64,000 bases of DNA from Rhizobium skierniewicense (GTDB taxonomy: Bacteria > Pseudomonadota > Alphaproteobacteria > Rhizobiales > Rhizobiaceae): positions 124,001-188,000 of the forward strand of contig NZ_JACIDV010000002.1 in the NCBI RefSeq assembly GCF_014196515.1, written 5' to 3'. A model generated the notes under the pieces. The model was given only the letters and a program-made list of their open reading frames with translations. It was not told the origin of the DNA and searched no databases. A program made the translations under genes and the position numbers. Shown piece by piece: positions 27,610 to 50,068 of the stretch. The first letter of the stretch is position 1. Every line of letters begins with the position of its first letter.

Positions 27610-28151
27610 TCGAAACCGCAGCCAAGCGCGTACATATCATCCAAGGCGAGTATAAAATCGCCAACGATCCCGAAGTGGTTTTAACGACCATTCTCGGCTC
27701 GTGCGTGGCTGCATGTCTGAGAGACCCCGTTGCGGGCGTCGGCGGCATGAACCACTTTCTGCTGCCGGGAACGGGGGGCACCGGGGGCGGAGATGCAACC
27801 CGCTATGGGGTGCATCTCATGGAATTGCTGATCAACGGTCTGCTCAAGCAGGGCGCGCGCCGTGATCGGCTCGAGGCAAAGATTTTCGGCGGGGCGAAGA
27901 CCATTGCCAGCTTCTCGAATGTCGGCGAACAGAACGCTGCATTCGCGGTGCAATTTCTAAAAGATGAAGGCATTCGTCTTCTCGGGCAGTCGACCGGGGG
28001 AGACTCGGGCAGAAAAGTGGAGTTCTGGCCGGTGTCCGGTCGTGCCCGCCAGCATCCACTCAGCGGTGCCGAAACGCAGTCTACGGTTGCCCTCGAAAAG
28101 CGTCCAGCACCGGCTCCAAAGCCAGTCGCCAACGATATCGAGTTTTTCTAG
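27606..28151 (+). CDS. cheD: Chemoreceptor glutamine deamidase CheD
   Basis: Deamidates specific receptor glutamines. The product has 181 residues. It shows the CheD catalytic Cys in [14 protein letters not shown] and the His in [11 protein letters not shown], with [12 protein letters not shown] and [16 protein letters not shown], all typical. The start overlaps the cheY2 stop (ATGA). The C-terminal tail (residues 140-181) is Pro/Ala rich and ends in DIEFF. Confidence 0.96.
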
Positions 28152-28257
28152 AACGGCTACAAAAGCGGGTTTGCTCAGTCGTTCTTCATCTTGTTTCAGC
28201 ATCGGGTCGACGCCAGCTTGGCAACATCGATCCGGCGCTCTGGTCACGGAGTCATTT

Positions 28258-28641
28258 ATGCAGATCGCCGAGCAAGCGCAGTTGTCCCCATTCGAAGAAG
28301 CACTTCCCGATGTCTTGATGCGGGTCGTTTCGGAGCTTCACGATGTGGCGTACCTGATCGAGAGAATAGAACCGCAATTGCTCGAGGCGACCGATGGTGC
28401 CGTCACCGTGGAAGGCATGCGCCTTTTCCAGGGTATAGACCTTGCTGTCCAAAAGACCCGCGGTCTCGCCGAATTCATCGATACGATTACGGGTTCCATC
28501 CCGCTCGATTGGGCCGTCGATGTCTCGACTGCGCTCAGCCTCGTCAAGCTGGCTGAAATGCAAAAGGCGCTGGGTGCAGGCTTGCGTCATGGCCATTCGC
28601 AACCGCTCGACAAGGTTTCCGGTGATTGCGATTTGTTCTAG
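28258..28641 (+). CDS. cheT: CheT, conserved last gene of the rhizobial che operon
   Basis: Small protein of 127 residues from the ATG at 28258; an upstream-extended frame to 27964 lies within cheD and is not used. It is all-helical in appearance. It carries the sequence GIDLAVQKT, which contains D-x-x-x-Q, the catalytic pattern of CheZ/CheX-type CheY phosphatases; a phosphatase role is therefore plausible. In S. meliloti the gene in this place is called cheT. It is the last che gene; there are 106 bases after cheD, without a clear terminator after it. In related rhizobia fliF follows here, but in this window an 11-kb insert comes first. Confidence 0.75.
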   Translation: MQIAEQAQLSPFEEALPDVLMRVVSELHDVAYLIERIEPQLLEATDGAVTVEGMRLFQGIDLAVQKTRGLAEFIDTITGSIPLDWAVDVSTALSLVKLAEMQKALGAGLRHGHSQPLDKVSGDCDLF

Positions 28642-32410: not shown

Positions 32411-35400
32411 ATGACGTCGATCATACCTTCTTTAACGCCCAGCCTGATTTCGAAGCTATCGACGGCCACAGTTGCCAGCTGGTCCACGGAAGACGTCGCA
32501 TCCCTCACGACCGAACAGGTGTCTGCCATGTCTTCGCGGCAGATCGGCGCATTTTCGTCCATACAGATATCGGCGATCGAGACGGAAGATCTGCAAACGA
32601 TGTCACGGATACAGCTGAGTGGCATTTCCGAGAGCGGGATGGTGGGGCTGACCCTTGACCAGCTTGCGGTTCTCAACAAAGCCTCCATCGAAAGCTTCAG
32701 CCAGAAGCAGGTCGCTGCGTTGACCACGCAACAGTTGGCCGACATGAACGATGTTACCATCGAAGCACTCACACCATCGCAGATCGCAGCTCTGAGTTCC
32801 GAGCAACTGGCAGCGATTGACCCGGAGGACTTCAAGGAGTTCTCCACCGCAGATATAGCTGCCATCTCCAGCAAAGCCATGCCGGGCTTGAGCCATAAGG
32901 TCATTCCGTTTTTAAGCACGGCTCAAATTGCTGCGATTTCTGCAACTGCCATGCCCGGGGTGACGACGGAAGCCTTCAGTTCCTTTTCCGATGTGCAGCT
33001 TGCCGCCATCAACAGCCAGGCAATTGCAAAGCTGACGAGCGAGCAGCTTACGAGCCTCGTCTCCGTCGAATTCGCATATTTTACGCCCGATCAGGCGTCT
33101 GCCCTGAAGGCCAACCAGATTTCCGCACTCGAGCAGGGAGATGTCTCCAACTTCACGGTAGCTGCTGTCGGCGCATTCAGCACGGCTGTGATCGCGAGCC
33201 TTTCTACCGGCCAGATTGCGGAATTATCCTCGACGCAGCTTGCGAACTTGAACGTCCGCCAGATCGGTGCGCTGACCTCATCTCAAGTGGCAGTCGTTAC
33301 GGCCGTTGACATCGAAGCTCTGACGCCGACGCAGATCGCGGCACTTTCGACGAAAACAATCACGGGTCTGACCACAGAGCAAATCGGTGCGCTTTCCACC
33401 GCGCAGGTGGAGGCCTTTACCCCGGCTCAGGTCAAAGCACTCAGTTCGACCCAGGTCGCAACGCTCGATAAAGATCAGATGGCGACCTTTTCAACAGGCG
33501 ACATAGCTGCGATCACGAGTGCAGCTGCTGTGGGCTTGAAGACGGAGATCGTTTCGTCTTTGAGTTCCCAGCAGGTGGCGGCAATCAGTGCCAGCACGTT
33601 CGCGAAGCTCACGACCGATCAGATATTGGCGCTGACATCAAGCCAGCCGGGCGCTTTGACATCGACCCAACTGGCCGCACTGACATCCATTCAGGCGGCA
33701 GTTCTGTCTAAGGATGACATTGACAAGTTTGAACCCTCAGCGCTCGCAGCCTTATCCAGCAAAGCGGTTCCAGGCCTCGATGTATCCGTCATTGCCGAGT
33801 TCACGGCCAATCAGATCGCCGCTCTGTCGACCGGTGCGATTGCCAAACTGACCACAACGCAGGTTGCCGCACTGTCTGCCGATCAGGTCGAGGCTCTGAC
33901 TGCGGCTCAGGTCAAAGTGCTGACCTCGTCCCAGATCGCGGCTCTCGGCGCCGACGAGATCAAGACATTCTCGACGGATGATATCGCCGCCCTCTCGACC
34001 AAAAGTATTGCGGGCTTGAGCGCCGACGCATTGAAGGGCCTGACGGAAGAGCAGGTCGCAGCCTTCAGTTCTGCTGCTGTTGCTGCCTTGTCGACTGAAC
34101 AGTTTGGTGCGTTTACAAGCGTTCAGTTGGAGGGGTTGACGGTAACCCAACTGAGCGCGCTCAAACCGGCACACGTCAAATTGCTGTCCGCAGAAACAGT
34201 CGCCTCACTTGACAATGAGGGTATCGCAGCTCTGAATACCGCAGCGATTGCTGCCTTGTCGACGGCGCAGATTGCCGCGATGACGACGGCTCAGGTTGAA
34301 GCCTTGTCGCCGAACCAAGTCAAAGCTTTAAGTTCATCGCAACTCGGCGCGCTCGAAACGGACCAAATTACTACGTTTTCGACAGCGGATATCGCCGCGA
34401 TCGGCTCCAAGGCCATCCAGGGCTTGAGCACCGCCGTCGTCGCTGCGCTGACCTCCATGCAAGTGGCCGCGTTGAGCACGGTTTCCGTTGCCGCGCTGAC
34501 CACAGATCAGATCGATGCTCTACCAGCCGACATGTTCACGTATCTCTCAAACATACAGGTCGGCGCGCTCACGTCTGCGCAAGTGGGTGTGCTGGATGCC
34601 TCTGATCTTGCAAAGATTTCCATCCCGGCTTTAAGCGGGACGGCCATCCCGGGTCTTTCTACGGCGGTTCTTGCCTCGCTCAAGCCAACGGAAATTGCGG
34701 CTTTGAGCACCAATGCCGTCTCGAAATTGACGAAGGATCAGATCGTCGCCTTGACGGCCACTCAGGTCGCGGCATTGACGACAGGCCAGACCAGAGCCCT
34801 CAGTACCACGCAAGTTGCAGCCCTTCCTTTAACGTCTCTCGCTGCGTTGAGCACGGCGCAGATATCCACGATGTTGCCAAAGACGTTGGCCGCGTTGACT
34901 GCGGAACAGATAACGGCTCTCTCGAGTGAGCAGATGAAAGCCTTGTCGTCGTCGCAAGTTGCGGCGCTGACATCGAACCAGATCAAAGGGTTTGAGGCCG
35001 AAGACATCAAGGCACTTTCGACGGCGGCTGTCGCGACCTTAAGCGCAAGCGGTGTCAGCGGCTTATCGAAAGACCTGATCGAGGCACTGTCAGCGGACCA
35101 GATTGCTGCGTTAAGCGTTGGCTCCGTCGGGTCCATGACGTCAGATCAGATTTCAGCGCTCTCGACCTTGCAGGTAGATGCCTTCACCACGCGTCAGCTC
35201 GCTGCGATGAAATCGGCACAGACTGCGGGATTTGGGCCTGAGGATATTGCGACATTTTCGACAGCAGACATCGCCGCTCTCACCGCAAGGGGTATTGCCG
35301 GCTTCAGCACGACTGCGATAAAGGCGCTGACAACAGAACAGATAGGGGCATTTTCGACGTCCGCCGTGGCAAGTTTGACGGTTGACCAGATTGATATGCT

Positions 35401-38400
35401 CGACACAGCTCAGTTCGCGGCGCTGGCGACGGCGCAGATTGGGGCGCTCACATCCGGCCAGATTGCTGCGCTGGATGCGGCAAATCTGCAATCGCTGGCT
35501 ACCGATAAACTTGCAGCGCTTCAACCTGCCACGATCAAAAATCTGACCGACGCTCAAGTGGCTGCGTTGACAACCCTCCAGATCGCCAGCCTTTCCACAG
35601 CCCAGGTGCGTGAATTGGGCGCCACCCAGATCGCCGCAATGAGCACGGACAAGATTGCGGCTCTGTCTGCCGACAAGATCGCAGCTATTGGTACCGCGGG
35701 TATTTCCGGCCTGTCCAGCAAGCAGATTGCGGCGTTGACGCCATTGCAGGCAGAGGCGCTGACAACCATACAAATATCGGTCATGGTCGGCGATCAGATC
35801 GACGCGTTTGGAAAAGACGCCATCGCCAAATTCTCCACTGACGATATGGCGGCCATCAAGTCCGATGCCATTTCCGGGCTATCGACGGCCGTTCTGGCGT
35901 CGTTGACGACAGCGCAAATTGCGGCACTGAACCCCTCCAGCGTCCCGGCGCTGACAACCCGTCAGGTCGCAGTGCTCGACAGCACACAAATTCCCGCATT
36001 GACCACAAAACAGGTCTCATCGCTGACCGCGGGCCAGATTGCCGTTCTCAACCCAGATGACGTCGCAAAATTCACGACATCACAGATTGCGGCTTTGAGT
36101 ACCCTTGGTGTTTCCGGGCTGACCCCGGCCCAGCTTGCAAAGTTTACAACGCTACAGGCCGAAGCGTTGACCGCTTTCCAGGTCGGGGCTTTGTCTTCTG
36201 CACAGATCGGCGCTTTGGGAAAAGATGGCATAGCGCAATTTTCGAACGCTGATATTGGCGCCATCAATCCGGCCATTATTGCGACCCTACCGACAGATAC
36301 CATCAAGGGTCTGACGCCGATTCAGCTCGCATCTTTGAGCAGCAGCGCTGTCGCAAGCCTGACGACCGGTCAGATCGGTGCTTTGAGCACCGGGCAGATC
36401 GATGCATTGTCAACGAAACAGATTTCCGCAATGACGTCACAGCAAATCGGGGCGCTGAGCAGCGACCATCTGACGTCGATGTCCACCGCATCCATCGCAT
36501 CGATCAGCTCTGCTGCGATTTCCGGATTGTCGACTGAGACGATTGCAGCGTTGACGACTTTCCAACTGGGCGCCATCAGCACGGCTGGTATATCAGGCTT
36601 GACGACCAAACAGGTCGCAGCCTTGAGTACCGGCCAGGTCGGCTGGCTGTCGAGCACGCAGGTTTCTGCCTTGTCTTCGAGACAGGTGGCATCCCTCAAC
36701 TCCGATCAGATCAAAGTGTTGACCACGCTTCAGATAACGGCCTTGAGTTCAGACGGCGTCACGGGTCTTTCGACCACGCAGATCGCCACTTTTACCACGC
36801 TTCAGGCGGAAGCGCTCACAACCGGGCAGGTTGCTGTGCTAAGCTCTGCGCAGGTTGGAGCGTTTGACGTCGACGATCTCAAGGTCTTTTCGACCAGAGA
36901 TATTCTGGCGCTTTCCAGCGGCGCGGTCGCGGGCCTGTCCACCGACATGCTGCCTTTGCTACCTGCTGAGACCATCGCCGCATTATCCTCGTCGGCCATG
37001 GCGGGTCTCTCCACAGCCCAGATTGCATCTTTGACATTGACACAATTTGGAGCGCTGACCACGTCGCAGATTGGCGCACTCGGTTCAAAGCAGATCGCAG
37101 CCCTTGGAACCGCCGGTGTCGGTGCGCTGTCCACGGCCCAGATTGCTGCACTCAGCACGATGGGCGTGCCCGGCCTTTCCCCAGCCCAGGTCGGCGCGCT
37201 TTCCACAGATCAGATCGAAGCGCTCAATACAGCGCAGGTCGCCGTCCTTACCTCGTCGCAAGTCGCAGCGCTTGACGCCGCCGACATTGGCGTGTTTTCG
37301 ACCGCTGAACTCGCAGTCCTGAGCTCAAGCGCTATTCTTGGATTATCCTCCGCGACGCTTGCCGGTCTTTCCCCAGAGCGCATCGCCGTGCTTGGAGCGG
37401 GCAGTGTTCCTGGCCTGTCCACGGGACAAATCGGGTCGCTGACGAGCGTGCAGATCGGTGCCTTGACGACGGTGCAGATTGCATCACTTGGCTCCAAGCA
37501 GATCGCAGCCTTGGGCACGGTCGGTGCCAGCGCGCTATCCACAGGCCAGATCGCAGCCTTGAGCACCGCTGGCATAGCCGGTCTCACCACAGACCAGATT
37601 GCGGCTCTGTCGACGGGGCAGATCGAAGCCTTCAACACGACGCAGGTTGCGGTGCTGACCTCTGCGCAGGTTGGCGCCTTGGGCGGGGACGACTTCAGCG
37701 CGTTTTCGACTGCCGAGCTTGCAGCTCTGTCTTCGGGTGCGATTGCTGGTCTCACGACCACGACACTTGCCGGACTTCCAACGGAGCGCATCGCTGTTCT
37801 CGGAACGGCCAGCATTGCTGGTCTCTCGACCGCGCAGATTGCGGCTTTGAAACCAGCGCAGCTGGAAGCCTTGACGACGGCGCAAGTGGCAGCCCTTGGC
37901 TCCAAACAGGTGGCTGCCCTGGGAAGCACGGGCGCGGCAGTCTTGTCGTCTGCGCAGATCATGGCCATGAGCACAGCCGCCATCGCAGGCCTGTCAACTG
38001 GCCAGATCACGGCCTTTTCCACGGAGCAGGTGGAGGCACTGACACCTGTACAGGTTGCCGCTCTCAACTCCATGCAGCTTTCTGCCTTTGATGTGGACGA
38101 TATTGCTGCACTGTCTACCGATGATCTGGCGGCGCTACCAGCGCATGTGATCCAAGGCTTATCCACCTCGGCGCTGGCCGCCATGCCAACGGAACGGATT
38201 GCAGCCCTCGGCACCGCTGGTATTTCCGGCCTCACAACCGGGCAGATCGCATCCTTGAGTGTCGATCAGGTGGAAGCCTTCACGCCTGTTCAGGTGGCGG
38301 CGCTGGGATCGAAACAGCTGGCGGCCCTCGGTACGGACGATCTTCTGACATTCTCGACGGCCGATATCGCGGCCATCAGCGCCGCCGCCATCAGTGGCCT

Positions 38401-39574
38401 GTCCACGGCGACAGTTGCTTCGTTGTCCACTGAAGTCGTCCATTCTCTGAGTGCAGCTGCTATTCCGGGCCTTTCCACGGCACAGATCGCCGCCCTGACA
38501 GTCGATCAGATCAGCGTTCTGTCGCTCGGCCAGATCGGGGCGTTTAGCTCGCAGCAGGTCGCAGCATTGGAAGTTGTTGACATCGCGGCTCTCTCGACGG
38601 GCCAGATCGTGTCGATCAGCACGGGCGGTATCACCGGTCTCTCCAGCGATCAGGTCGCGGCTCTCAGCCTGGAACAATTGCATGTGCTGTCCACCACACA
38701 GGTCAATAATCTCACGTCAAAGGCAGTAGCAGGGCTAACAGCGGAGGAGTTGCAGACGCTCAGCTCGGCCCAGATCGCTGCCATCAACTCGTCGGCCATC
38801 GGCGGATTGCCGACCGACTTCATTGCGGCGATGTCCACGGGCGAACTGGCGGCCTTGGGAACGGCCGGCATCGCCGGGCTGACCAGCAAACAGGTCGCAG
38901 CGCTTGGCAAGGATCAGGTTGAATCCTTCTCGACTGCTCAGATTGCAGCACTCAGCGCAGATGGTTTGGCTGGTCTGACGACACAGGCCATGTCGACATT
39001 CTCGACATCCGATATCGCTGCGATTGCCTCCGGCTCCATTCGCGGCCTGTCGACCGCCATCATCGCGGCATTGACGACCAGCGAGATCGGCGCTTTGAGT
39101 GCGAGCCAGGTTGGGGCGCTGGGCTACAACCAGATCGTCGCACTGACGACGACACAGGTCGATGCGCTGACGACAACGCAGATCAACGCCCTGAACGCCA
39201 TCCAGGCGGCGGCGCTGGGAACAGAAGATATCGCGCTGTTTTCAACGGACGACATTCTGGCTTTTTCCACCGGCGCGATTTCCGGTCTTGCAACCAGCGT
39301 GATCGGTGCGTTGACGACTGCGCAAAGTGAGGCGTTGACACCGGCGCAGGTCGGCGCGCTGACATCGGCCCAGGTGGCGGCTCTCTCCAAGGAGAATATC
39401 GCGAAGTTCTCGACCTCCGATATCGCGGCCTTCAGCCCGACCGGCATCACCGGCCTATCCACAGACACGCTGGTGAGCCTGTCCAGCGAGCAGATCGATA
39501 CGATCCTCAACACCCATATGGGATCGCTGACGCCCAATCAGGTGTCTGCCATTATCTCCAATTACGTGTCCTGA
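32411..39574 (+). CDS. Giant octapeptide-repeat protein, 2,387 residues
   Basis: I do not recognise a named family. After six residues (MTSIIP) the whole chain is built of 8-residue units with consensus x-[LF]-[ST]-[ST]-x-[QDE]-[IV]-x, commonly ALTTAQIA. There are 91 complete units to residue 734, one broken unit of five residues (KISIP, 735-739), then 206 complete units to the C-terminus. Units are grouped in modules of 10 or 17, each opened by a unit such as TFSTADIA. Composition is Ala, Leu, Ser, Thr, Gln; I see no Cys, only two Trp, and few Lys/Arg. There is no signal peptide, membrane segment or C-terminal export domain. Each unit has a helix N-cap pattern: Ser/Thr at 3 with Gln at 6, and Leu at 2 with Ile/Val at 7. 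It could be an exported or surface, possibly glycosylated filament or spacer. Function unknown. Confidence 0.9.
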   Translation: MTSIIPSLTPSLISKLSTATVASWSTEDVASLTTEQVSAMSSRQIGAFSSIQISAIETEDLQTMSRIQLSGISESGMVGLTLDQLAVLNKASIESFSQKQVAALTTQQLADMNDVTIEALTPSQIAALSSEQLAAIDPEDFKEFSTADIAAISSKAMPGLSHKVIPFLSTAQIAAISATAMPGVTTEAFSSFSDVQLAAINSQAIAKLTSEQLTSLVSVEFAYFTPDQASALKANQISALEQGDVSNFTVAAVGAFSTAVIASLSTGQIAELSSTQLANLNVRQIGALTSSQVAVVTAVDIEALTPTQIAALSTKTITGLTTEQIGALSTAQVEAFTPAQVKALSSTQVATLDKDQMATFSTGDIAAITSAAAVGLKTEIVSSLSSQQVAAISASTFAKLTTDQILALTSSQPGALTSTQLAALTSIQAAVLSKDDIDKFEPSALAALSSKAVPGLDVSVIAEFTANQIAALSTGAIAKLTTTQVAALSADQVEALTAAQVKVLTSSQIAALGADEIKTFSTDDIAALSTKSIAGLSADALKGLTEEQVAAFSSAAVAALSTEQFGAFTSVQLEGLTVTQLSALKPAHVKLLSAETVASLDNEGIAALNTAAIAALSTAQIAAMTTAQVEALSPNQVKALSSSQLGALETDQITTFSTADIAAIGSKAIQGLSTAVVAALTSMQVAALSTVSVAALTTDQIDALPADMFTYLSNIQVGALTSAQVGVLDASDLAKISIPALSGTAIPGLSTAVLASLKPTEIAALSTNAVSKLTKDQIVALTATQVAALTTGQTRALSTTQVAALPLTSLAALSTAQISTMLPKTLAALTAEQITALSSEQMKALSSSQVAALTSNQIKGFEAEDIKALSTAAVATLSASGVSGLSKDLIEALSADQIAALSVGSVGSMTSDQISALSTLQVDAFTTRQLAAMKSAQTAGFGPEDIATFSTADIAALTARGIAGFSTTAIKALTTEQIGAFSTSAVASLTVDQIDMLDTAQFAALATAQIGALTSGQIAALDAANLQSLATDKLAALQPATIKNLTDAQVAALTTLQIASLSTAQVRELGATQIAAMSTDKIAALSADKIAAIGTAGISGLSSKQIAALTPLQAEALTTIQISVMVGDQIDAFGKDAIAKFSTDDMAAIKSDAISGLSTAVLASLTTAQIAALNPSSVPALTTRQVAVLDSTQIPALTTKQVSSLTAGQIAVLNPDDVAKFTTSQIAALSTLGVSGLTPAQLAKFTTLQAEALTAFQVGALSSAQIGALGKDGIAQFSNADIGAINPAIIATLPTDTIKGLTPIQLASLSSSAVASLTTGQIGALSTGQIDALSTKQISAMTSQQIGALSSDHLTSMSTASIASISSAAISGLSTETIAALTTFQLGAISTAGISGLTTKQVAALSTGQVGWLSSTQVSALSSRQVASLNSDQIKVLTTLQITALSSDGVTGLSTTQIATFTTLQAEALTTGQVAVLSSAQVGAFDVDDLKVFSTRDILALSSGAVAGLSTDMLPLLPAETIAALSSSAMAGLSTAQIASLTLTQFGALTTSQIGALGSKQIAALGTAGVGALSTAQIAALSTMGVPGLSPAQVGALSTDQIEALNTAQVAVLTSSQVAALDAADIGVFSTAELAVLSSSAILGLSSATLAGLSPERIAVLGAGSVPGLSTGQIGSLTSVQIGALTTVQIASLGSKQIAALGTVGASALSTGQIAALSTAGIAGLTTDQIAALSTGQIEAFNTTQVAVLTSAQVGALGGDDFSAFSTAELAALSSGAIAGLTTTTLAGLPTERIAVLGTASIAGLSTAQIAALKPAQLEALTTAQVAALGSKQVAALGSTGAAVLSSAQIMAMSTAAIAGLSTGQITAFSTEQVEALTPVQVAALNSMQLSAFDVDDIAALSTDDLAALPAHVIQGLSTSALAAMPTERIAALGTAGISGLTTGQIASLSVDQVEAFTPVQVAALGSKQLAALGTDDLLTFSTADIAAISAAAISGLSTATVASLSTEVVHSLSAAAIPGLSTAQIAALTVDQISVLSLGQIGAFSSQQVAALEVVDIAALSTGQIVSISTGGITGLSSDQVAALSLEQLHVLSTTQVNNLTSKAVAGLTAEELQTLSSAQIAAINSSAIGGLPTDFIAAMSTGELAALGTAGIAGLTSKQVAALGKDQVESFSTAQIAALSADGLAGLTTQAMSTFSTSDIAAIASGSIRGLSTAIIAALTTSEIGALSASQVGALGYNQIVALTTTQVDALTTTQINALNAIQAAALGTEDIALFSTDDILAFSTGAISGLATSVIGALTTAQSEALTPAQVGALTSAQVAALSKENIAKFSTSDIAAFSPTGITGLSTDTLVSLSSEQIDTILNTHMGSLTPNQVSAIISNYVS
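32429..39571 (+). repeat. 24-bp coding repeat array, 297 full units
   Basis: The DNA has 7,143 bases = 297 x 24 + 15. The 15-base remainder is the short unit at 34613-34627. Neighbouring units differ at many third positions and use different Leu, Ser and Thr codons, so the array is old or selected at protein level rather than a recent perfect expansion. Antisense and out-of-frame open frames here are by-products of the repeat. Confidence 0.9.
36884..38107 (+). repeat. Three tandem 408-bp (17-octad) super-repeats
   Basis: Modules start at 36884 (VFSTRDIL), 37292 (VFSTAELA) and 37700 (AFSTAELA), exactly 408 bp apart. Matching inner units recur at the same offsets, for example ALGSKQIA-type unit 9 and the GLSxxQI unit 13. 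A fourth partial copy of 10 units runs from 38108 to 38347, where the next TFSTADIA module starts. Confidence 0.85.
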
Positions 39575-39694
39575 CAGGGACCCGTAATTTAGGCAAGGGA
39601 AACGGATAGGGGAAACGCTCGCGCAAGCTTCGCCGCATAGTGTGCCAATGGGACCAGAAGGTCTTGGACTCATTGAATGACGGTGCGGAACAGA

Positions 39695-41386
39695 ATGAAT
39701 CTGTTAAATCAATTCCCTCAGGTTTTAAAAAATTTCGCGGCTCTCGGCCAGACGCGGCTTTTGATGCTGGGTGGTGTGGGCGTGTTGTCCATGGCAATCA
39801 TTCTCGCTGCTGCGCTTTATGTGAACAAACCTGCCTACGAAACGCTCTATGTCGGTCTCGAAACGATGGATCTGAACAAGATCAGCATCGCGCTTGCAGA
39901 ATCGAATGTCGATTTTCAGGTCGGTTCTGACGGCACGAGCCTTCAGGTCCCAGTAGGCATGACCAGCAAGGCGCGCCTGTTGCTTGCCGAGCGCGGTCTG
40001 CCTGACAGCGCCAATGCCGGTTACGAACTGTTCGACAATGTCGGTTCGCTGGGTCTCACCTCCTTCATGCAGGAAGTCACCCGTGTCCGCGCCCTTGAGG
40101 GCGAAATCGGACGTTCCATCCAGCAGATCGATGGTATTGCCGCTGCCCGCGTCCATATCGTCATGCCCGATGTCGGGAATTTCCGTCGCGGCGAGCAAAA
40201 GCCAACCGCTTCTGTCATGATCCGCGCAAGCGCATCGGCCGGCCGCAAGGCCGCATCATCCATTCGTCATCTCGTCGCTTCGGCTGTTCCCGGCCTTGAG
40301 GTTGACGATGTGACGCTTCTTGATTCCACTGGCCAGCTTCTGGCCTCTGGCGACGATGTCGGCAACGGCGCGTTGAACCGCTCGCTGACACTGTCCCAGA
40401 ACGTCCAGCAGGAACTCGAAACCAAGATCGACAAGGCGCTGGCGCCCTTTCTCGGCATGGACAATTTTCGCTCTACTGTCACAGCGGAGTTGAACACCGA
40501 CACCCAGCAGATTCAGGAAACGGTCTTCGATCCTGAATCGCGCGTAGAACGGTCCGTACGCACCACCAAGGAAGACCAGAAATCTCAGGAAACGACACCT
40601 GACTCGGCTGCAACCGTTGAGCAGAACGTACCGCAGGCAGCCCCTCAGGGCGGTGGCGGCGGCCCGAAATCTTCCGATGAGACGGCGAAAAAAGAAGAGC
40701 AGACAAACTACGAAATCAATTCCAAGACGACAGCCACGGTTCGCAATGGCTACACCGTCGACAAGATTTCCATTGCCGTTGTCGTCAACAAAGGTCGTCT
40801 GGCAAAAATGATCGGCGAAAATGCCGATCAGCCTAAGATCGACGCCTATCTCGCCGAAATGCAGAAAATTGTGGCATCCGCTGCGGGCATTTCGACGGAC
40901 CGTGGCGATATCGTGACCATCACGGCCATGGACTTCCTTGAGACCCAGTTGCTCGACCAGGCCGTTGCCGGTCCAGGCTTTACAGAAGTCTTGAGCCGCA
41001 ATTCGGCAGGTATCATCAACTCACTGGCCTTCGTTCTGGTCGCGTTCCTCGTGGTCTGGCTCGGTGTACGTCCAATCGTACGCTCCATTTCGGGCGGCAA
41101 CGCGTCGTCACCTGCAGAAATCGGCCAGGAAGCCGCGGGTCTCGAACTCCCCGACTTCTCGCCGGCTATGGGCGGAGCAAGCGCCGGGGGAGGTCTTATG
41201 GACGGCTTCGGCGCGGACTTCGGCTTCGACAGCACCGACGATCTCCTGTCCGGCGACGATGGCGGTGGCGATTTCACCCGCCGGGTTCGCGAAGGGCCGG
41301 AGCGCCGCCTGTCTCGCATGGTGGAAATCAGCGAAGAACGCGCGGCCAAGATACTACGCAAATGGGCAATCGAAAAAGCAGCCTAA
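39695..41386 (+). CDS. fliF: Flagellar MS-ring protein FliF
   Basis: Forms the MS ring in the inner membrane, the base on which rod, export gate and C-ring assemble. The ATG at 39695 gives 563 residues starting MNLLNQFPQVLKNFAALG, the usual rhizobial start; an upstream in-frame ATG at 39677 is possible. First membrane segment LLMLGGVGVLSMAIILAAALYV, then the ring-building modules (ETLYVGLETMDLNKISIALAES, VRALEGEIGRSIQQIDGIAAARVHIVMP), a low-complexity Gln/Gly/Pro loop (about 300-340), second membrane segment IINSLAFVLVAFLVVWLGV, and the C-terminal FliG-binding tail ERAAKILRKWAIEKAA. It is followed by a terminator. Confidence 0.95.
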   Translation: MNLLNQFPQVLKNFAALGQTRLLMLGGVGVLSMAIILAAALYVNKPAYETLYVGLETMDLNKISIALAESNVDFQVGSDGTSLQVPVGMTSKARLLLAERGLPDSANAGYELFDNVGSLGLTSFMQEVTRVRALEGEIGRSIQQIDGIAAARVHIVMPDVGNFRRGEQKPTASVMIRASASAGRKAASSIRHLVASAVPGLEVDDVTLLDSTGQLLASGDDVGNGALNRSLTLSQNVQQELETKIDKALAPFLGMDNFRSTVTAELNTDTQQIQETVFDPESRVERSVRTTKEDQKSQETTPDSAATVEQNVPQAAPQGGGGGPKSSDETAKKEEQTNYEINSKTTATVRNGYTVDKISIAVVVNKGRLAKMIGENADQPKIDAYLAEMQKIVASAAGISTDRGDIVTITAMDFLETQLLDQAVAGPGFTEVLSRNSAGIINSLAFVLVAFLVVWLGVRPIVRSISGGNASSPAEIGQEAAGLELPDFSPAMGGASAGGGLMDGFGADFGFDSTDDLLSGDDGGGDFTRRVREGPERRLSRMVEISEERAAKILRKWAIEKAA

Positions 41387-43298: not shown

Positions 43299-45221
43299 TT
43301 ATCGGACCTCGAACGGTGCGCTACGTGGAGGCAGGGCTGGCACATCGAAGTGATCAGGCTCTGCTCCGGCCTTTGCTTTCTCCCACATGGTTTCGTATGC
43401 GCTCTCAAGGTGACGGCAGAAGCGCTCGGCATCAAAGAGTGGCATAGTGAAACGGTTGGCATCGATCCGGGCCCGGATATCACCCAACGGCGCAGGATCC
43501 AGAGCGTAAGCGACGGCCTGATCAACGTAAGCGGCTTCGCTTTCCGCGATCAGTTCAGGCGCGCCGATGGCGTGAAGCAGGCTTTCGCTCACACGGGATG
43601 CGAAGTTCGTGCCCTGCGTTGTGAGAACCGGCAAGCCAGACCAGAGTTGCTCCGACGTTGTCGTGTGCCCATTGACCGGAAAAGTGTCGAGACCAAGGTC
43701 AGCGACAGTGATACGGTTGAGGTGGAGCTCGAACTCCAGTTTTTCCATAAAGAACACCCGCTTTGCCGATATTCCCGTCGCCATAAGCTTGGTGAGAATA
43801 TTGGTTTTGCTGTCCTGACTGTTGTGCAAAATCCAGATGACGCTTTTCGGCGCGCGTTTGAGGATTTCTGCCCATAGCTCCATGGTGCGGGGTGTGATCT
43901 TGCGGTTGGCGTTGAAGGACGCGAAAACAAACGCGTCTTCTGGAAGCCCGACCTGCGCCCGGCTGATCTTCTTGGCCAAAGGACGGTTGACCGGGTCGTT
44001 TGGCTGATAGGTCTCAGGCAGCCGCGCGAATTTTTCGTAATAGTGCGGCTTTGAGCTGTCGCGTAGCACGTAATGGTCGCCAATGACGTAATCGAGGTCG
44101 ACGTTAACGGTCGAACCTGGAAAGCCGATCCAGGCGACCTGGATCGGTGCTGCTCCCATGTTGAGAATGGATGTCCGATTGCCGGCCGTGTGGCCTTTCA
44201 GGTCAACAAGAATATCGATGCCGCGCGCCTTGATTTCGGCGAGAGCTTCATCGTTGCTCATGTCTCTTATGGTGACGACGTGTCCCCACAAAGCGCGATC
44301 GGCCTGGTTCGTCTGAAGAAGGTCGGGTTCCGAGTGGCAAAACAACGTGACTTCGAAACGGTCGCGATCGTGCAGTTCCAACACACGGCGAATGAGCTTC
44401 ATGGTCGCATGTTTGTCGAAAAAGTCGGAGGAGAGGTAGCCGACCCTGATCTTCTGCCCCCACTCGTGAGGCATCTTACGGCGTTTGCTGCTCATTTCGG
44501 GCGAAAAGACCGGAGTGTTGCTGCGGGCCATCTGGTTGATGTGCTCGTCGCCGCTCCAATGCAGATTGAAGAACGTGCCATCCAGCTCGATGAAAGCCGT
44601 GTCTCCGGTTGCAATCGCGTTTTCGATGATCGGCAGGTGCTTTTCCACGGCGTCGAACTTGCTGTGTTCGCGGCAAAACGTCAGATACATCAAACGCACG
44701 GCCTGTTGGCGTGGCAATTTCGCAAGAAGAATGCGCGCTGTTTCGATGTCTTTCGGATCGAACAAATCCCAGGTCGTAATCGCTATGCGAGCACCCAGTT
44801 TCATATGCTCAACTGAATCGCTCTTCATCAGAACATTTTTCAGCGCCCGCGCAATTCGGGGTTCGCCCCGTTCCAGCAGGATCGTACCGACGATGTAGCA
44901 TATCTCGGGATACTTATGAAATTTGTGGATGAGCTTGTTGGCGAGCGAAAGCGCTTTGTCTTTTTGTCCGCACTCATAATGCAGCTTGATGCTCTCGACG
45001 AGATAGCTTTCGGCATCCATACCTCCCTGCTGGTATGCCAGCTCATAGGATGTGGCTGCCTGTTCCGGCATATTGATCCGCAAACACGTCTTCGCGAGGA
45101 GCGCATAGGTCCGCGAATCGCGATTGGTATCGATCAGCTTGTTCAGCGTCGTCAAGGCTTGTGTGTATTGACCGGTCTTGAAGTGCTTCGACGCGGCTGA
45201 GTAGCTGATTTCGTTTAGCAT
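43299..45221 (-). CDS. TPR-containing GT41 glycosyltransferase, likely flagellin-modifying
   Basis: A second GT41 enzyme, divergent from the flagellin genes. The ATG at 45221 with GGGAC upstream gives 640 residues (MLNEISYSAASKHFKTGQYT); the open frame reaches 45431 but that extension lacks coding character. TPR-like repeats fill about residues 1-230. The catalytic part has VGYLSSDFFDKHATMKLI, DILVDLKGHTAGNRTSIL, PIQVAWIGFPGSTVNVDLDY, FASFNANRKITPRTMELW and LGLDTFPVNGHTTTSEQL with WSGLPVLTTQG, close to canonical OGT motifs. Caulobacter FlmG has the same build and glycosylates flagellin. Position next to four flagellins supports that role. It is distinct from the 28858-30909 enzyme. Confidence 0.85.
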   Translation of the reverse strand: MLNEISYSAASKHFKTGQYTQALTTLNKLIDTNRDSRTYALLAKTCLRINMPEQAATSYELAYQQGGMDAESYLVESIKLHYECGQKDKALSLANKLIHKFHKYPEICYIVGTILLERGEPRIARALKNVLMKSDSVEHMKLGARIAITTWDLFDPKDIETARILLAKLPRQQAVRLMYLTFCREHSKFDAVEKHLPIIENAIATGDTAFIELDGTFFNLHWSGDEHINQMARSNTPVFSPEMSSKRRKMPHEWGQKIRVGYLSSDFFDKHATMKLIRRVLELHDRDRFEVTLFCHSEPDLLQTNQADRALWGHVVTIRDMSNDEALAEIKARGIDILVDLKGHTAGNRTSILNMGAAPIQVAWIGFPGSTVNVDLDYVIGDHYVLRDSSKPHYYEKFARLPETYQPNDPVNRPLAKKISRAQVGLPEDAFVFASFNANRKITPRTMELWAEILKRAPKSVIWILHNSQDSKTNILTKLMATGISAKRVFFMEKLEFELHLNRITVADLGLDTFPVNGHTTTSEQLWSGLPVLTTQGTNFASRVSESLLHAIGAPELIAESEAAYVDQAVAYALDPAPLGDIRARIDANRFTMPLFDAERFCRHLESAYETMWEKAKAGAEPDHFDVPALPPRSAPFEVR

Positions 45222-45603
45222 TGGGTCCCGTTCTATCCTCTTGCCGTCCCTTGCCCAGACAGTCGCCATGACGCGCGCAGGTATCGCAGACTTTGAATAT
45301 CCACATGACCCTATCTTGCGAAGCTTGCTTGAAACAGGTCTTGCGGTCGTCGCCGGTGTCCCAGTTTGGTTAATGCTGGCGATCGGGTCTTTGCGCGATA
45401 TTAACCAACAAAACCAACAGACTGGCCGCAACCTTCAAAATTAAGGACTTGGAAATCGTTGCCGCGCATTTTGATCCCTGCGTGACGGGTTTGGTTGTCC
45501 ATAAGAAAATCGGAACCGAGTGGCATGATGCCGAACCGTTCGCGCCGGTACCTGTAATCCGGCATGTCCCTCATCTTGTACCGCGTTTTAAAGGGGCACT
45601 ATT
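45222..45603. promoter_or_regulatory. Divergent promoter region, glycosyltransferase/first flagellin
   Basis: No gene is supported in these 382 bases; a frame at 45449-45709 overlaps the flagellin start and is not credible. The stretch holds a TTAACC box (45401-45406) and the flagellin leader elements at 45545-45597. Confidence 0.55.
45545..45597 (+). promoter_or_regulatory. Flagellin mRNA leader element, copy 1
   Basis: CCGG (45545-45548) ... CCGG (45559-45562), then ATGTCCC (45564-45570) and AAGGGG (45591-45596), seven bases before the flagellin ATG. CCCT can pair with the AGGGG of the ribosome-binding site, hiding it. The same order occurs before the next two flagellins. A short upstream frame (ATG 45564 to TAG 45611, MSLILYRVLKGHYYV) overlaps the flagellin start. 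Confidence 0.6.
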
Positions 45604-46482
45604 ATGTCTAGCATTAACTACAACTCCAGCGCTAATTCCGCACTTCAGACACTGCGCACGATCAACAGCAATCTTGGCAAGACGCAGGAACGCGTTTCGA
45701 CCGGCATGAAAATCGGCGGTGCGTCCGACGGTGCTGCCTACTGGTCCATCGCTACCACGATGAAGTCCGACAACAAGGCACTCGGTGCAGCAACTGACGC
45801 ACTGGGCGTTGGTGCGGCCAAGGTCGACACCGCTTATGCCGCCATGGACAGCGCAATCGACGTCGTCAACGAAATCAAGGCAAAGCTGACGACCGCCAGC
45901 GAATCGTCTGTAGACAAGGAACAGGTTCAGCTCGAAATCACCAAGCTTCAGGAGCAGCTGTCCTCTATCGGTCAGGCCGCTTCGTTCAACGGTGAAAACT
46001 GGGCCGTTAAGGCTAGTGGTTCGTCCACGACTGTTGTCGATGGCTTCATCCGCAACACCGACGGAACCGTCAAGGTCACGACTGCAACCTTCGATGCAGG
46101 TTCCTATGCGATGTTCTCCGCCATCTCGACGGCTGGCGTCGGTACAGGCGGTGTTCTGGCTGCGGTCATGACAATCGCTTTGACATCCATCTCTACACAG
46201 GGCCAGGTCGATGCATTCCTTACGACGGTCGAAACAGCACTCGGAAAAATGACGAAGGGCGCCGCTGCCCTCGGTGCATTGTCCACGCGTATCGATCTTC
46301 AGGATCAGTATTCCAGCAAGCTCAGCGATGCGATGGACGCGGGTGTTAGCCGTCTGGTTGATGCAGACATGGAAGAGGAATCGGCCAGACTGTCCGCTCT
46401 GCAAACACAGCAGCAGCTGGCGATCCAGTCTTTGTCGATCGCCAACTCTTCTTCGCAGAACATCCTCACGCTGTTCCGTTAA
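45604..46482 (+). CDS. flaA: Flagellin, first tandem copy
   Basis: Filament subunit, 292 residues, exported by the flagellar apparatus. It has only the conserved D0/D1-type ends and a short middle, typical of rhizobial flagellins. N-terminal SALQTLRTINSNLGKTQERV and STGMKIGGASDGAAYWSIA; C-terminal LVDADMEEESARLSALQTQQ and SIANSSSQNILTLFR. Start ATG 45604 with AAGGGG upstream. The letter A is assigned by order and by its first place in the tandem array, not by comparison. It is closely similar to the next copy. FlaF, FlbT and the adjacent GT41 enzyme are its likely post-transcriptional and post-translational partners. Confidence 0.93.
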   Translation: MSSINYNSSANSALQTLRTINSNLGKTQERVSTGMKIGGASDGAAYWSIATTMKSDNKALGAATDALGVGAAKVDTAYAAMDSAIDVVNEIKAKLTTASESSVDKEQVQLEITKLQEQLSSIGQAASFNGENWAVKASGSSTTVVDGFIRNTDGTVKVTTATFDAGSYAMFSAISTAGVGTGGVLAAVMTIALTSISTQGQVDAFLTTVETALGKMTKGAAALGALSTRIDLQDQYSSKLSDAMDAGVSRLVDADMEEESARLSALQTQQQLAIQSLSIANSSSQNILTLFR

Positions 46483-46505
46483 TAGAACAAGCAGTCTCAA
46501 AAATT

Positions 46506-46532
46506 GGCCGGACCGAAAGGTTCGGCCTTTTT
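46506..46532 (+). terminator. Terminator of first flagellin
   Basis: A 9-bp stem (46506-46514 with 46519-46527, one G-U pair) with a GAAA tetraloop and five T residues. Confidence 0.85.
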
Positions 46533-46699
46533 GCGTTCTTAGTTCATTAAGATAGTATTAACAAATTATTTTCAAAATTAACTCATTCTTTACTGAATAT
46601 TTGGAAGTCCTTAACCTTAATAATGTTAGATCGGGTTACCAAAACGACGGCCGAGAATTTACTATACTATTCGGCAGGCATGAAGCTGATCGTCGTTTA

Positions 46700-46743
46700 C
46701 CGGTAAAGCCGGAATGTCCCTTCAATTATTCTTGCCAAAGGGG
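46700..46743 (+). promoter_or_regulatory. Flagellin mRNA leader element, copy 2
   Basis: CCGG (46700-46703), CCGG (46709-46712), ATGTCCCTT (46714-46722), then TTGCC and AAAGGGG (46737-46743), eleven bases before the ATG. CCCTT pairs with AAGGG. A 14-codon upstream frame (MSLQLFLPKGQIIL) ends in a TGA that overlaps the flagellin ATG (ATGA), so it could couple translation. Confidence 0.6.
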
Positions 46744-46754
46744 CAAATAATACT

Positions 46755-47633
46755 ATGACCAGTATCCTGACTAACCCATCTGCAATGTCTGCACTTCAGA
46801 CTCTGCGCACTATCAATATGAATCTTGCAACAACGCAGGACCGCGTTTCGTCTGGTGAAAAGGTCGGCAAGGCTGCCGATAACGTCGCTTACTGGTCGAT
46901 TTCCACGACAATGAATTCCGACAACAAGGCACTCGGCGCAGCAACGGACGCTCTGGGCGTCGGCGCAGCCAAGGTCGACACCGCTTACGCTGCTATGGAT
47001 AGCGCGATCGACGTTGTTAACGAAATCAAGGCAAAGCTGACAACTGCCAGCGAAACATCCGTCGACAAAGACCAGGTTCAGCTTGAAATCACCAAGCTTC
47101 AGGAACAGCTGACAGCAATCGGTCAGGCCGCGTCTTTCAACGGCGAAAACTGGGCAGTTCAGGCCAGCGGATCGACAACGACTGTGGTCGATGGCTTCAT
47201 TCGTGACTCTGCCGGCGCCGTCAAGGTAACGACAGCAACGTTCGATGCTGGCACATACGCCATGTTCTCTGCGATCTCCAGCGGCGTTGGTACCGGTGGT
47301 GTTCTCGGTTCTCTGATGTCCGTCAAGCTGGAAAGCAACTCGACGCAGGGCGAAATTGATGCGTTCCTGACGACTGTTCAGGGCGCTCTTGACAAACTGA
47401 CTGACGGTGCGGCTGCTCTCGGTGCTCTGTCTTCGCGTATCGACATGCAGGACGACTACTCTGCCAAGCTGAGCGATGCGATCGAAGCCGGTGTAAGCCG
47501 CCTGGTTGACGCCGACATGGAAGAAGAATCTGCACGCCTTTCGGCACTGCAGACCCAGCAGCAGCTCGCGGTCCAGTCGCTGTCGATTGCCAACTCTTCT
47601 TCGCAGAACATCATGTCTCTCTTCAGAGGCTAA
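46755..47633 (+). CDS. flaB: Flagellin, second tandem copy
   Basis: Filament subunit, 292 residues. It shares almost all of the conserved central sequence NKALGAATDALGVGAAKVDT and most of the rest with the first copy, with different silent codons. N-terminus MTSILTNPSAMSALQTLRTI; C-terminus SIANSSSQNIMSLFRG. Letter assigned by order. It has its own leader, promoter region and terminator, so it is transcribed separately from the first copy. Confidence 0.93.
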   Translation: MTSILTNPSAMSALQTLRTINMNLATTQDRVSSGEKVGKAADNVAYWSISTTMNSDNKALGAATDALGVGAAKVDTAYAAMDSAIDVVNEIKAKLTTASETSVDKDQVQLEITKLQEQLTAIGQAASFNGENWAVQASGSTTTVVDGFIRDSAGAVKVTTATFDAGTYAMFSAISSGVGTGGVLGSLMSVKLESNSTQGEIDAFLTTVQGALDKLTDGAAALGALSSRIDMQDDYSAKLSDAIEAGVSRLVDADMEEESARLSALQTQQQLAVQSLSIANSSSQNIMSLFRG

Positions 47634-47652
47634 TCTCTATCCACTTGAAGCG

Positions 47653-47682
47653 AAAAAGCCGCGCATTGCGCGGCTTTTTTTT
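47653..47682 (+). terminator. Terminator of second flagellin
   Basis: A perfect 12-bp stem (AAAAAGCCGCGC, 47653-47664, with 47668-47679) with an ATT loop and a run of T residues. Confidence 0.9.
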
Positions 47683-47951
47683 AAGAAAAATTAATATTGT
47701 GATATTCAAAATTATCTAAATTTAACAATATGTTATTGTTCATTAATAGCAATGGCTGCCCTTAATGCTTCATTCATGAAGGTAAAAGATTCCCTTCGTT
47801 TAAAGTTTTGTTAACCATAAAGTTGTCTTCTGTGGTCATCGAAACAGCGCACCGGCCACTTCAAGGTCGGGAAGCATGAAGCTGCCTGCTGCGTTTCCCG
47901 GCTGGACCGGAATGTCCCTTCTAAAAGATTTGCCAAAGGGGCGACCTGAAG
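47683..47951 (+). promoter_or_regulatory. Promoter and leader of third flagellin
   Basis: AT-rich region without a gene. It holds TTAACCATAAAG (47811-47822), identical to the box upstream of icpA, and the leader set CCGG (47898-47901), CCGG (47907-47910), ATGTCCCTT (47912-47920) and AAAGGGG (47935-47941), ten bases before the ATG. In this copy the upstream frame from 47912 does not stop near the flagellin start but runs on to 48124 in another frame. Confidence 0.6.
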
Positions 47952-48830
47952 ATGACGAGTATTTTGACAAACACCTCTGCAATGTCTGCCCTTCAGACGC
48001 TGCGCTCCATCAACATAGACCTCTCCGACACCCAGGACCGCGTTTCCTCTGGTTACCGCGTTGGTCAGGCGAAAGACAACGTTGCCTATTGGTCCATCTC
48101 CACCACCATGAACTCCGACAATAAAGCGCTAAATGCCGCTTCGGACGCTCTGGGTGTGGGTGCCGCCAAGGTTGATACCGCCTATGCGGCAATGGAAAGC
48201 GCGATCAGCGCCGTTGACGAAATCAAAGCAAAGCTTGTCACCGCCAGCGAGCAGTCCACTGACAAGAGCCAGATCCAGCTCGAAATCGGTAAACTGCAGG
48301 AGCAGCTTTCCGCAATCGCACAGGGCGCGTCCTTCTCCGGTGAAAACTGGATGGTCTATGGCTCTGTGACAGAGGCAAGCGTTGTCGATGGTTTCATTCG
48401 TACGGCAAGCGGTGGCGTCAGCGTCACAACAGCGAAATTCAATATCGGTTCTTATGCCATGTTCCAGTCGATCAACGGCGGCGTTGGCTCGGGCGGTATT
48501 CTCGGCAGCATCATGAGCGTCGCTCTGACCAGCATATCCACGCAGGGCGAGATCGACAATTTCATGAACATCGTCGAAACTGCGATGAGTGGCCTGACGG
48601 ACTCGGCTGCTGCTATCGGTGCGCTCCAGACCCGTATCGACTTGCAGGACAACTACTCCGCCAAACTGTCGGATGCGATGGAATCCGGCGTAAGCCGACT
48701 TGTCGATGCGGACATGGAAGAGGAATCCGCCAAGCTTTCGGCACTCCAGACACAGCAGCAGCTGGCGATCCAGTCACTCTCGATTGCGAACTCTTCGGCC
48801 CAGAATATCATGACGCTGTTCCAGCGTTAA
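47952..48830 (+). CDS. flaC: Flagellin, third tandem copy
   Basis: Filament subunit, also 292 residues. Ends are conserved (SALQTLRSINIDLSDTQDRV; LVDADMEEESAKLSALQTQQ; SIANSSAQNIMTLFQR) while the middle differs more from the first two (for example SAVDEIKAKLVTASEQSTDK and VTEASVVDGFIRTASGG). Letter assigned by order. Own leader and terminator. Confidence 0.92.
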   Translation: MTSILTNTSAMSALQTLRSINIDLSDTQDRVSSGYRVGQAKDNVAYWSISTTMNSDNKALNAASDALGVGAAKVDTAYAAMESAISAVDEIKAKLVTASEQSTDKSQIQLEIGKLQEQLSAIAQGASFSGENWMVYGSVTEASVVDGFIRTASGGVSVTTAKFNIGSYAMFQSINGGVGSGGILGSIMSVALTSISTQGEIDNFMNIVETAMSGLTDSAAAIGALQTRIDLQDNYSAKLSDAMESGVSRLVDADMEEESAKLSALQTQQQLAIQSLSIANSSAQNIMTLFQR

Positions 48831-48850
48831 GCATCAGATATTACGTAAGA

Positions 48851-48885
48851 AAACCGTACCGTCCGAAAGGACGGTGCGGTTTTTT
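48851..48885 (+). terminator. Terminator of third flagellin
   Basis: A long stem (AACCGTACCGTCC with GGACGGTGCGGTT, one mismatch) with a GAAA loop and six T residues. Confidence 0.88.
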
Positions 48886-49102
48886 CATTTTATTCTGAAA
48901 AGAGAACAGTCTGTTTTTGACGCCTATGACGCAAGCTTCGGCATAGCTTGGCTTGATATAAGGCTTGCTTCAGGATTGCAATTTTCAACCGCTGGCGATC
49001 TAGCAGCTTCGAGATTGGCTCCCACGCCTCTTCATGATGAGAGTGCGATCTTCGCCAGATTGATTGGCATGTTTCTGACACTTATTGCCGATGTAGGTAC
49101 CG

Positions 49103-50068
49103 ATGACCAAAATTCTCTCTTCTGGCTACGTGCAGAGCGCGCTTCAAACCCTGTTGTTCAGCGATGATACGCTGACGAAGACACAGGCGAGGGTGACCTC
49201 GGGTTTGAAAATTGCCTCGGCCGCCGACGACTCCGGTTACTGGTCCACGGCAACCAATCTACGCTCTGACGGGAATGTTCTGACCAGTGTCGGCGATGCG
49301 CTCAACCTGGGTGCGTCCAAAGCCGACACGGCCTACGAGGCCGTCACCGCGATTATCGATGTTGTTGACCAGATCATGACGCAACTGACGACGGCGTATG
49401 AGCCTGGCGCAGACCGAGACAAAATCAACGGGGCCATCGACGCGCTCAAGAATAATCTGCAGTCAGTCTCGCAGGCAGCAAGCTTTTCAGGGGACAATTG
49501 GCTTTATAACACCAGCGAGCAGCTTCAGCCTGAAAAGCGCGTCCCGTTTTCGTTCCAGAAGGATACATCCGGCTCCATCACTTTGCAGTATCTGACGGTG
49601 AATACGGCGCAAACGACACTTGTCGATAGCAGCGATGCGAGCCGCGGGCTGCTGACCGCAGGCGTTGACGCGAGCAAACGTAACCCTGATACAAGTTCCA
49701 CGGAGCGCAATTACTACCTGCTGGACGTTGGGTCACCGACGGGCCAAACGGGGAGCGAAGTCAGCATTTCGAAAAGCACGACCAACGACGAACTCGATGA
49801 CATGGTCTATGTAGTCGGGCAGTTATCGACCAAGTTGAACCAGTTGGCCGGCTCGATCGGCACCATGTCCAGCAGGATTGATCAGCAGACGACCTTTGTC
49901 GGCGCATTGAAAGATTCCATGGGTAAAAGCGTCAGCCGACTGGTGGATGCCAACATGGAAGAAGAATCCACACGATTGAAAGCGCAGGAAACGCAGCGCG
50001 ATCTGGCGGTTCAAGTGGTGTCGCTTGCCAACAACCATCGCAAAAGCCTAGCCAACCTGTTTGCGTGA
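49103..50068 (+). CDS. flaD: Flagellin, fourth and divergent copy
   Basis: Filament or minor flagellin, 321 residues. N-terminus MTKILSSGYVQSALQTLLFS and TSGLKIASAADDSGYWSTAT; C-terminus LVDANMEEESTRLKAQETQR and VSLANNHRKSLANLFA. The middle is about 30 residues longer than in the other three and dissimilar. It lacks the CCGG/CCCTT/AAGGGG leader, and the terminator between the third copy and this gene means it has its own promoter. Letter assigned by order. Likely a minor or proximal filament protein; that is inference. Confidence 0.88.
   Translation: MTKILSSGYVQSALQTLLFSDDTLTKTQARVTSGLKIASAADDSGYWSTATNLRSDGNVLTSVGDALNLGASKADTAYEAVTAIIDVVDQIMTQLTTAYEPGADRDKINGAIDALKNNLQSVSQAASFSGDNWLYNTSEQLQPEKRVPFSFQKDTSGSITLQYLTVNTAQTTLVDSSDASRGLLTAGVDASKRNPDTSSTERNYYLLDVGSPTGQTGSEVSISKSTTNDELDDMVYVVGQLSTKLNQLAGSIGTMSSRIDQQTTFVGALKDSMGKSVSRLVDANMEEESTRLKAQETQRDLAVQVVSLANNHRKSLANLFA

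Follow-up and report, generated by a model that had tools for sequence, protein, structure and literature searches.

The window analysed here, a stretch of 64,000 nucleotides from Rhizobium skierniewicense, harbors a gene for a giant octapeptide-repeat protein inside its chemotaxis-flagellum cluster, which raises the question of what such a protein does there and how it relates to the sugar genes next to it. The gene order is cheR, cheB, cheY, cheD, cheT, a TPR/GT41 glycosyltransferase gene, a UDP-galactopyranose mutase gene (GLF), the repeat gene and fliF (Table 1), the CheT model covering residues 99-225 of its reading frame. The original prediction had placed the array between cheT and fliF, which is correct as to position, but the glycosyltransferase and mutase genes also lie between cheT and the array. 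The repeat family is already known. New here are an almost obligate association of the family with its own clade of O-glycosyltransferases, a signature predicting the sugar sites, and the repeated entry of its genes into the flagellar regulon. We propose, with a probability of roughly 0.6, that a dedicated cytoplasmic GT41 enzyme decorates a giant helical solenoid, which is then exported.

Table 1. Features of the cheT-fliF insert and its surroundings (positions in the window)
Feature	Position	Strand	Evidence or remark
cheT, final che gene ahead of the insert	28258..28641 (ORF 27964-28641)	+	NCBIfam NF047973 200.9 bits, cut-off 200
TPR + GT41 (OGT-like) glycosyltransferase, 698 aa	28813..30909	+	PF13844 1.1e-75 + TPR models
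UDP-galactopyranose mutase (GLF), 385 aa	31020..32177	+	TIGR00031 312.5 bits, cut-off 303.75; PF03275 1.2e-77
Giant ALTTAQ-repeat protein	32411..39574	+	PF20080 1198.9 bits, 80 stretches; 2,387 aa, 237 kDa, pI 4.2
N-terminal leader MTSIIP	32411..32428	+	6 residues before the octads
Octads 1-91	32429..34612	+	residues 7-734
Broken unit KISIP, phase shift	34613..34627	+	5 residues, 735-739
Octads 92-297	34628..39571	+	residues 740-2387; 206 units, last residue = unit end
Conserved C-terminal element	39494..39571	+	last 26 residues; in the model, longer helices at the end of the chain
fliF, bounding the insert on the right	39677..41386	+	PF01514 2.2e-51, PF08345 5.7e-35
Second TPR/GT41 gene (GT41b), adjoins flagellin genes	43299..45431	-	PF13844 1.7e-72; separate clade
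Flagellin genes (45604-46482, 46755-47633, 49103-50068)	45604..50068	+	PF00669/PF00700

The repeat gene runs from an ATG to a TGA codon, and its product is free of Cys, as had been stated from the sequence. ORF analysis likewise confirmed that, after six residues, the protein consists of 297 octads (91 and 206, parted by one broken unit) which keep their phase to the last residue; the MTS start is common to most of the intact paralogues listed. Residues at positions 2 (297 of 297 units) and 7 (293 of 297) are hydrophobic, but the consensus offered earlier, x-L-[ST]-[ST]-x-Q-[IV]-x, is matched exactly by only 68 units. Ser or Thr occupies position 3 in 218 octads and position 4 in 195. At a lag of eight residues the identity is 0.306 versus 0.103 in 200 shuffled sequences (z 32), 291 of the units are distinct, and tandem repetition is slight at the DNA level, where five arrays of 2.0-2.9 copies were found. 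The gene is under purifying selection: compared over 2,387 codons with that of A. rubi TR3 (locus L119), dN is 0.078 and dS 0.749, giving a dN/dS of 0.10, with ratios of 0.05, 0.02 and 0.02 for the neighbors GT41, GLF and cheB.

No C-terminal export domain had been seen in the original prediction; the C-terminus nevertheless forms a distinct element, better conserved than any other block in a set of 15 orthologues (0.76 versus 0.52-0.69 in other parts). Of 111 complete ALTTAQ ORFs longer than 400 aa, 102 carry a C-terminal motif, a count that is descriptive because the pattern was redrawn after the ends had been viewed (an earlier motif matched 45 of 134 ORFs), and some rows of the set are one gene fetched twice. 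The nine misses comprise four ends that are intact but depart from the pattern, two of them only slightly, and five ORFs that are frame-broken, contain N or are cut. We regard the element as a candidate cap or export signal.

The original prediction held that the array could be an undescribed surface or flagellum-associated structure. The repeat belongs to a named family, PF20080 (ALTTAQ repeat, ALTTAQ_rpt; cut-off 26.4 bits, each of the 80 stretches passing individually), and has a solved relative, HeliScrew4 (PDB 9zem), which matches over 107 residues with the same octad (E 8.5e-16). The Pfam entry line gives no function, and a search of a literature library for ALTTAQ, HeliScrew and PF20080 found no paper on function. 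HeliScrew4, a chain of 120 residues, usually has Pro at position 4, whereas the protein described here has Ser or Thr.

Modelled with AlphaFold2, the first 320 residues (pLDDT 91.0, pTM 0.81) and the last 540 residues (pLDDT 90.9, pTM 0.73) consist of helix and loop only, with a single short helix per octad, and the repeat protein is predicted to be a giant alpha-solenoid. Helices of at least four residues start at octad position 4 in 35 of 36 cases in the first model and in 61 of 64 in the second, which makes position 3 the predicted N-cap, filled by Ser or Thr; the helix itself would open with the residue at position 4, predicted to be exposed. Pro favors the first turn of a helix, and its counts at positions 1 to 8 (0, 0, 8, 27, 0, 0, 1 and 11) therefore fit position 4 as the helix start. 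The second model ends in two longer helices at residues 512-525 and 528-539 of 540. A leucine-rich repeat fold was rejected: LRR_EndoS scored 40.8 bits (cut-off 27.9) and PDB structures of such repeats matched weakly (E at least 0.002), yet neither model contains a strand. CAAP1 (PF15335) matched one 40-residue stretch, 812-851, with 60.6 bits against a cut-off of 25. We take both scores for probable chance likeness, which for CAAP1 would lie between the octads and a model that is itself short and helical.

The glycosyltransferase encoded two genes upstream has a TPR N-terminus and a GT41 domain scoring 255.4 bits (cut-off 25). By profile alignment it has its catalytic domain family in common with XcOGT (2jlb), human OGT and SPINDLY (E 2.3e-77, for XcOGT, to 7.1e-45). 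Its active-site residues H286, K455 and H533 align with OGT and are invariant in nine of nine aligned sequences; we take them to be H498, K842 and H920 of human OGT. An identity as an N-glycosyltransferase of the HMW1C/NGT type was considered and rejected with a score of 22.2 bits for NF049992 (cut-off 1000). HMW1C, likewise a GT41 enzyme but one that transfers to Asn, is a mechanistic precedent in that it modifies a giant exoprotein, the HMW1 adhesin, with mono- or di-hexose sugars (PMC3012730).

The remark that the array lies next to sugar genes, which the original prediction made in passing, turned out to touch on a strong association with a dedicated GT41 and often with the mutase. In 61 genomes all 29 GT41 copies of at least 45% identity have an ALTTAQ ORF at most 2 kb away, with 0-2 genes between, at varied places. 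Within the genus ALTTAQ genes were found in 27 of 37 genomes, and GT41 together with GLF in 26 of these and in none of the other 10; the sole exception among the 27 (G018) has an ALTTAQ ORF of 274 aa. Among 297 genomes of the order, GT41 (E<=1e-120) was found in 13, each of them one of the 18 ALTTAQ genomes, and in 12 of the 13 it adjoins ALTTAQ on a single contig (Fisher 5e-19 for the co-occurrence, kinship ignored). The five ALTTAQ genomes of the order lacking it comprise four with a single match and one, G299, with 15. Among 385 genomes of the class, GT41s of at least 570 bits occur in four of six ALTTAQ genomes and in no further genome, 23 additional genomes having only GT41s of at most 341 bits. 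Since 5 of 18 genomes in the order and 2 of 6 in the class have ALTTAQ without the enzyme, the repeat can do without GT41.

A scan of genome contigs gave 248 relatives, of which the best 80 were taken as named GT41 loci. In 73 of these 80 loci an ALTTAQ gene lies within 10 kb, and the genomes of the remaining 7 all have one at another place. GLF is present in just 58 of the best 80, once at only 38% identity, which makes its role uncertain. In a tree of 54 GT41 rows, built by a quick search, all 31 enzymes labelled ALTTAQ-adjacent fall into a single clade (SH-aLRT 98), itself divided into two subclades. Outside it fall 19 GT41s of ALTTAQ-less genomes, one of an ALTTAQ genome and three GT41b, the latter labelled apart, though the GT41b of genome G014 sits 1.5 kb from ALTTAQ. 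In this tree, which covers GT41s of the genomes searched, the ALTTAQ-adjacent enzymes are a separate clade tied to one putative acceptor family, in which they would differ from XcOGT, human OGT and SPINDLY.

If the solenoid is the acceptor, its sequence might carry a signature of the sites. Ser/Thr contents were determined for every distinct ALTTAQ ORF of the GT41-positive genomes that consists of octads to at least 60%, 133 in total, the octads being scored with positions 4 and 5 left out of the score. The mean at position 4 is 0.75 (0.48-0.97), and six of these genes that do not adjoin GT41 have 0.55-0.73. In five genomes where GT41 was not found the values are 0.10, 0.24, 0.28, 0.50 and 0.97 (median 0.28), a difference with p 0.025 for a small comparison group, kinship uncorrected; adding Thioclava (0.45) and Polaromonas (0.27), for which the lack of GT41 was assessed at the locus alone, gave p 0.0016, again with kinship uncorrected. 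Position 3 has a mean of 0.80, the same with or without GT41 (p 0.42). The position-4 bias is therefore supported with exceptions. The main exception is the value of 0.97 in G299 (L181), where the gene runs off the contig start, so that a GT41 in an unassembled part is possible. The protein at L195 (0.30), whose type it shares with the protein of value 0.28, was set apart from the test, since its genome has a GT41 elsewhere. At another locus (L178, 5477-13489) the gene for an ALTTAQ type with little Ser/Thr at position 4 adjoins HlyD and MFS genes; its genome, G372, has no GT41 passing 1e-80.

Three proteins next to the other GT41 subclade have position-4 values of 0.73-0.96. In all three loci seen with both subclades Ser/Thr is high at positions 4 and 5 alike (L194 0.95/0.85, L196 0.96/0.92, pieces of L204 0.88-0.92/0.74-0.85), which, more tentatively, could mean that the paired paralogues each read their own register. 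In our reading position 3 has a structural role, and the sugar acceptor is position 4, in some cases position 5.

With a sugar-attaching enzyme both neighboring and co-occurring, the repeat protein is probably a sugar-coated fibre. It would be the substrate of the upstream TPR/GT41 enzyme, which would attach sugars in the cytoplasm, mainly to the Ser/Thr at position 4, and the mutase may contribute to the sugar donor pool. The glycosylated fibre would then be exported, to form a coat or matrix or to serve in adhesion outside the cell. Export by way of the flagellar apparatus, or expression together with it, is likely in the Agrobacterium rubi clade, where the cassette lies inside the che-fli cluster. 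Outside this clade type I secretion would be the better candidate: type I secretion genes lie near ALTTAQ and GT41 in Cereibacter, Pseudomonas (P. asturiensis), Pseudoroseomonas, G506, G601 and Ensifer LCM 4579. Among the 80 named loci (best 80 of 248 relatives) an ABC/HlyD pair of type I secretion was matched only in L104. The source genome has one PrtD-type exporter over the cut-off (762 bits), encoded on contig 3.

Such a pathway would give a hitherto unexplained repeat family a testable function and a bacterial clade of OGT relatives its likely substrate, with the position-specific Ser/Thr signature directly predicting the sugar sites. Up to ~200 O-glycans would then be spaced regularly along one polypeptide shaped as a rigid screw. 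Nature would thereby offer a scaffold for displaying sugars multivalently, and plant-associated bacteria might possess a new layer on their surface or flagella.

The search of related genomes for the array between cheT and fliF, suggested along with the original prediction, succeeded. GT41-GLF-ALTTAQ stands ahead of fliF in 15 of 37 genomes of the genus (source genome counted), in one of them (G010) with an interrupted mutase reading frame; together with the dN/dS of 0.10 this argues against a gene that is silent and absent in close relatives. Among the named loci, those of A. rubi TR3, A. rosae and A. larrymoorei show an identical gene order. In all of the remaining 22 genomes cheT and fliF are only 112-129 bp apart. 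GT41b is present in all 15 genomes with the che-fli cassette and in one of the 22 others, G014, which has flagellins, GT41b, GLF, ALTTAQ and GT41 grouped at a place other than cheT-fliF.

How general the flagellar linkage is was judged by contexts, defined as groups of loci sharing at least two neighbor families (cut contigs can split contexts); flagellar genes were sought with 17 genes of the window as queries, and Pfam confirms MotA, FliG and FlgE. Of the 73 named loci with ALTTAQ (from the best 80 of 248 relatives), 16 have flagellar genes in the fetched stretch, which amounts to 5 of 39 contexts: cheT-fliF (5 loci), a flgL-like gene (5), flgE (2), motA...fliG (3) and flagellins with motB and motC (1). 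The fetched stretches of the other 34 contexts contain no flagellar gene. Five of 39 would arise by chance with a probability of 0.0001-0.002, assuming a guessed rate of 1.2-2.4% per context. Flagellar linkage thus recurs, but as a minority of contexts, and the idea of a surface or flagellum-associated structure remains a good guess with partial support. Beyond the named set, flagellar contexts were seen in G014, on a Pseudorhizobium flavum plasmid and in Rhodovastum. In L126, L139 and L166 the order ALTTAQ-GT41-ALTTAQ follows directly behind a motA...fliG run, with a flhB-like gene next in L139 and L166, an arrangement that looks like an insertion of the cassette into the motor gene cluster with which the window opens (887-5600).

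Cassettes in several lineages of Rhizobiaceae sit at differing points of the flagellar regulon (cheT-fliF, fliG-flhB, flgL, flgE, flagellins). More tentatively, and as a possibility we would not call probable, this would be a new bacterial glyco-fibre in which most helix starts of the solenoid are sugar sites, written by a GT41 clade evolved for it and exported by flagellar or type I machinery, and which in these lineages is built with the flagellum and coats it or rides on it.

The same flagellar positions could be explained in other ways. One is that the repeat protein, glycosylated or not, is a cytoplasmic scaffold or flexible spring that organizes chemotaxis or motor proteins. Solenoids commonly bind partners, a signal peptide is not evident on inspection of the sequence, and besides the che-fli position here the gene adjoins motA-fliG in three other loci. 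Most contexts of the family lie away from che and fli genes, however, in several lineages the gene is near HlyD/ABC exporters, and the 22 insert-less genomes with their short cheT-fliF distance indicate that the motor works without the repeat protein. We consider a scaffold unlikely, if the best placed of the alternatives.

Next comes the view that GT41 and mutase modify flagellin, the ALTTAQ protein being a passenger of the flagellar cluster. The model would be FlmG of Caulobacter, a soluble TPR-containing glycosyltransferase which modifies flagellins in the cytoplasm before export (PMC7591256) and is also a mechanistic precedent for our own proposal. By description rather than sequence, the enzyme studied here would resemble it as a soluble TPR glycosyltransferase acting in the cytoplasm on a polymer before its secretion, with a repeat solenoid as acceptor instead of flagellin. 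The cassette does lie between cheT and fliF, with flagellins ~4 kb past fliF, and the five flagellar contexts point the same way. Yet the 34 contexts that pair GT41 with ALTTAQ in stretches devoid of flagellar genes do not fit, nor does the lack of GT41 in all 10 ALTTAQ-less genomes of the genus, every one of which has fliF. Moreover, a different GT41 adjoins the flagellins of the window: downstream of fliF follow two LuxR-type regulators, GT41b and then the flagellin genes. GT41b is a candidate flagellin glycosyltransferase and by its position likelier than the enzyme of the cassette to be of the FlmG type; the sugars of the cluster may thus serve flagellin, which counts against our main proposal. 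Modification of flagellin by the cassette itself appears improbable. ORF 47952-48830, among the flagellin genes and equal to them in length, is a further candidate flagellin.

Least probable is an exported fibre with a GT41 acting on some other target, linked to it through the shared mobility of a surface-modification island. In favor of this, the cassettes are found on plasmids as well as in many different contexts, a giant cadherin-like repeat protein or its end adjoins GT41 in two of the seven loci without local ALTTAQ, and G299 is rich in position-4 Ser/Thr with GT41 not found. It would leave unexplained, however, the tight order-wide pairing, the grouping of the GT41s in one clade and the Ser/Thr bias at position 4.

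Decoration of the ALTTAQ solenoid by its own GT41 therefore remains our preferred reading, and several minor observations on the cassette may be added. Some ALTTAQ proteins bear the names heme utilization protein, large exoprotein or ICE nucleation protein in plasmid records, apparently because low-complexity sequences resemble one another. Caulobacter vibrioides, a control genome, matches PF20080, and an 18.9-kb plasmid (CP117533.1) of the Spiroplasma endosymbiont of Drosophila atripex gave a 27% match, far beyond Proteobacteria. The source genome has further ALTTAQ genes (L039, L040 and L041), namely a 768-aa ORF on contig C5 and gene parts at the ends of C5 and C4; in these parts equal-scoring matches are spaced 408 bp (17 octads) apart and probably broke the assembly. 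In L120 (3361-9387) GT41 and GLF adjoin a giant cadherin-like repeat protein in place of ALTTAQ, and at the start of L118 the end of a similar protein; both genomes have ALTTAQ elsewhere, and the cadherin-like protein is perhaps a second type of substrate. Relatives of a gene with a Methyltransf_FA domain recur in 17 loci, in L137 (11754-13439, PF12248) between GT41 and GLF, as a possible sugar-modifying partner of the cassette.
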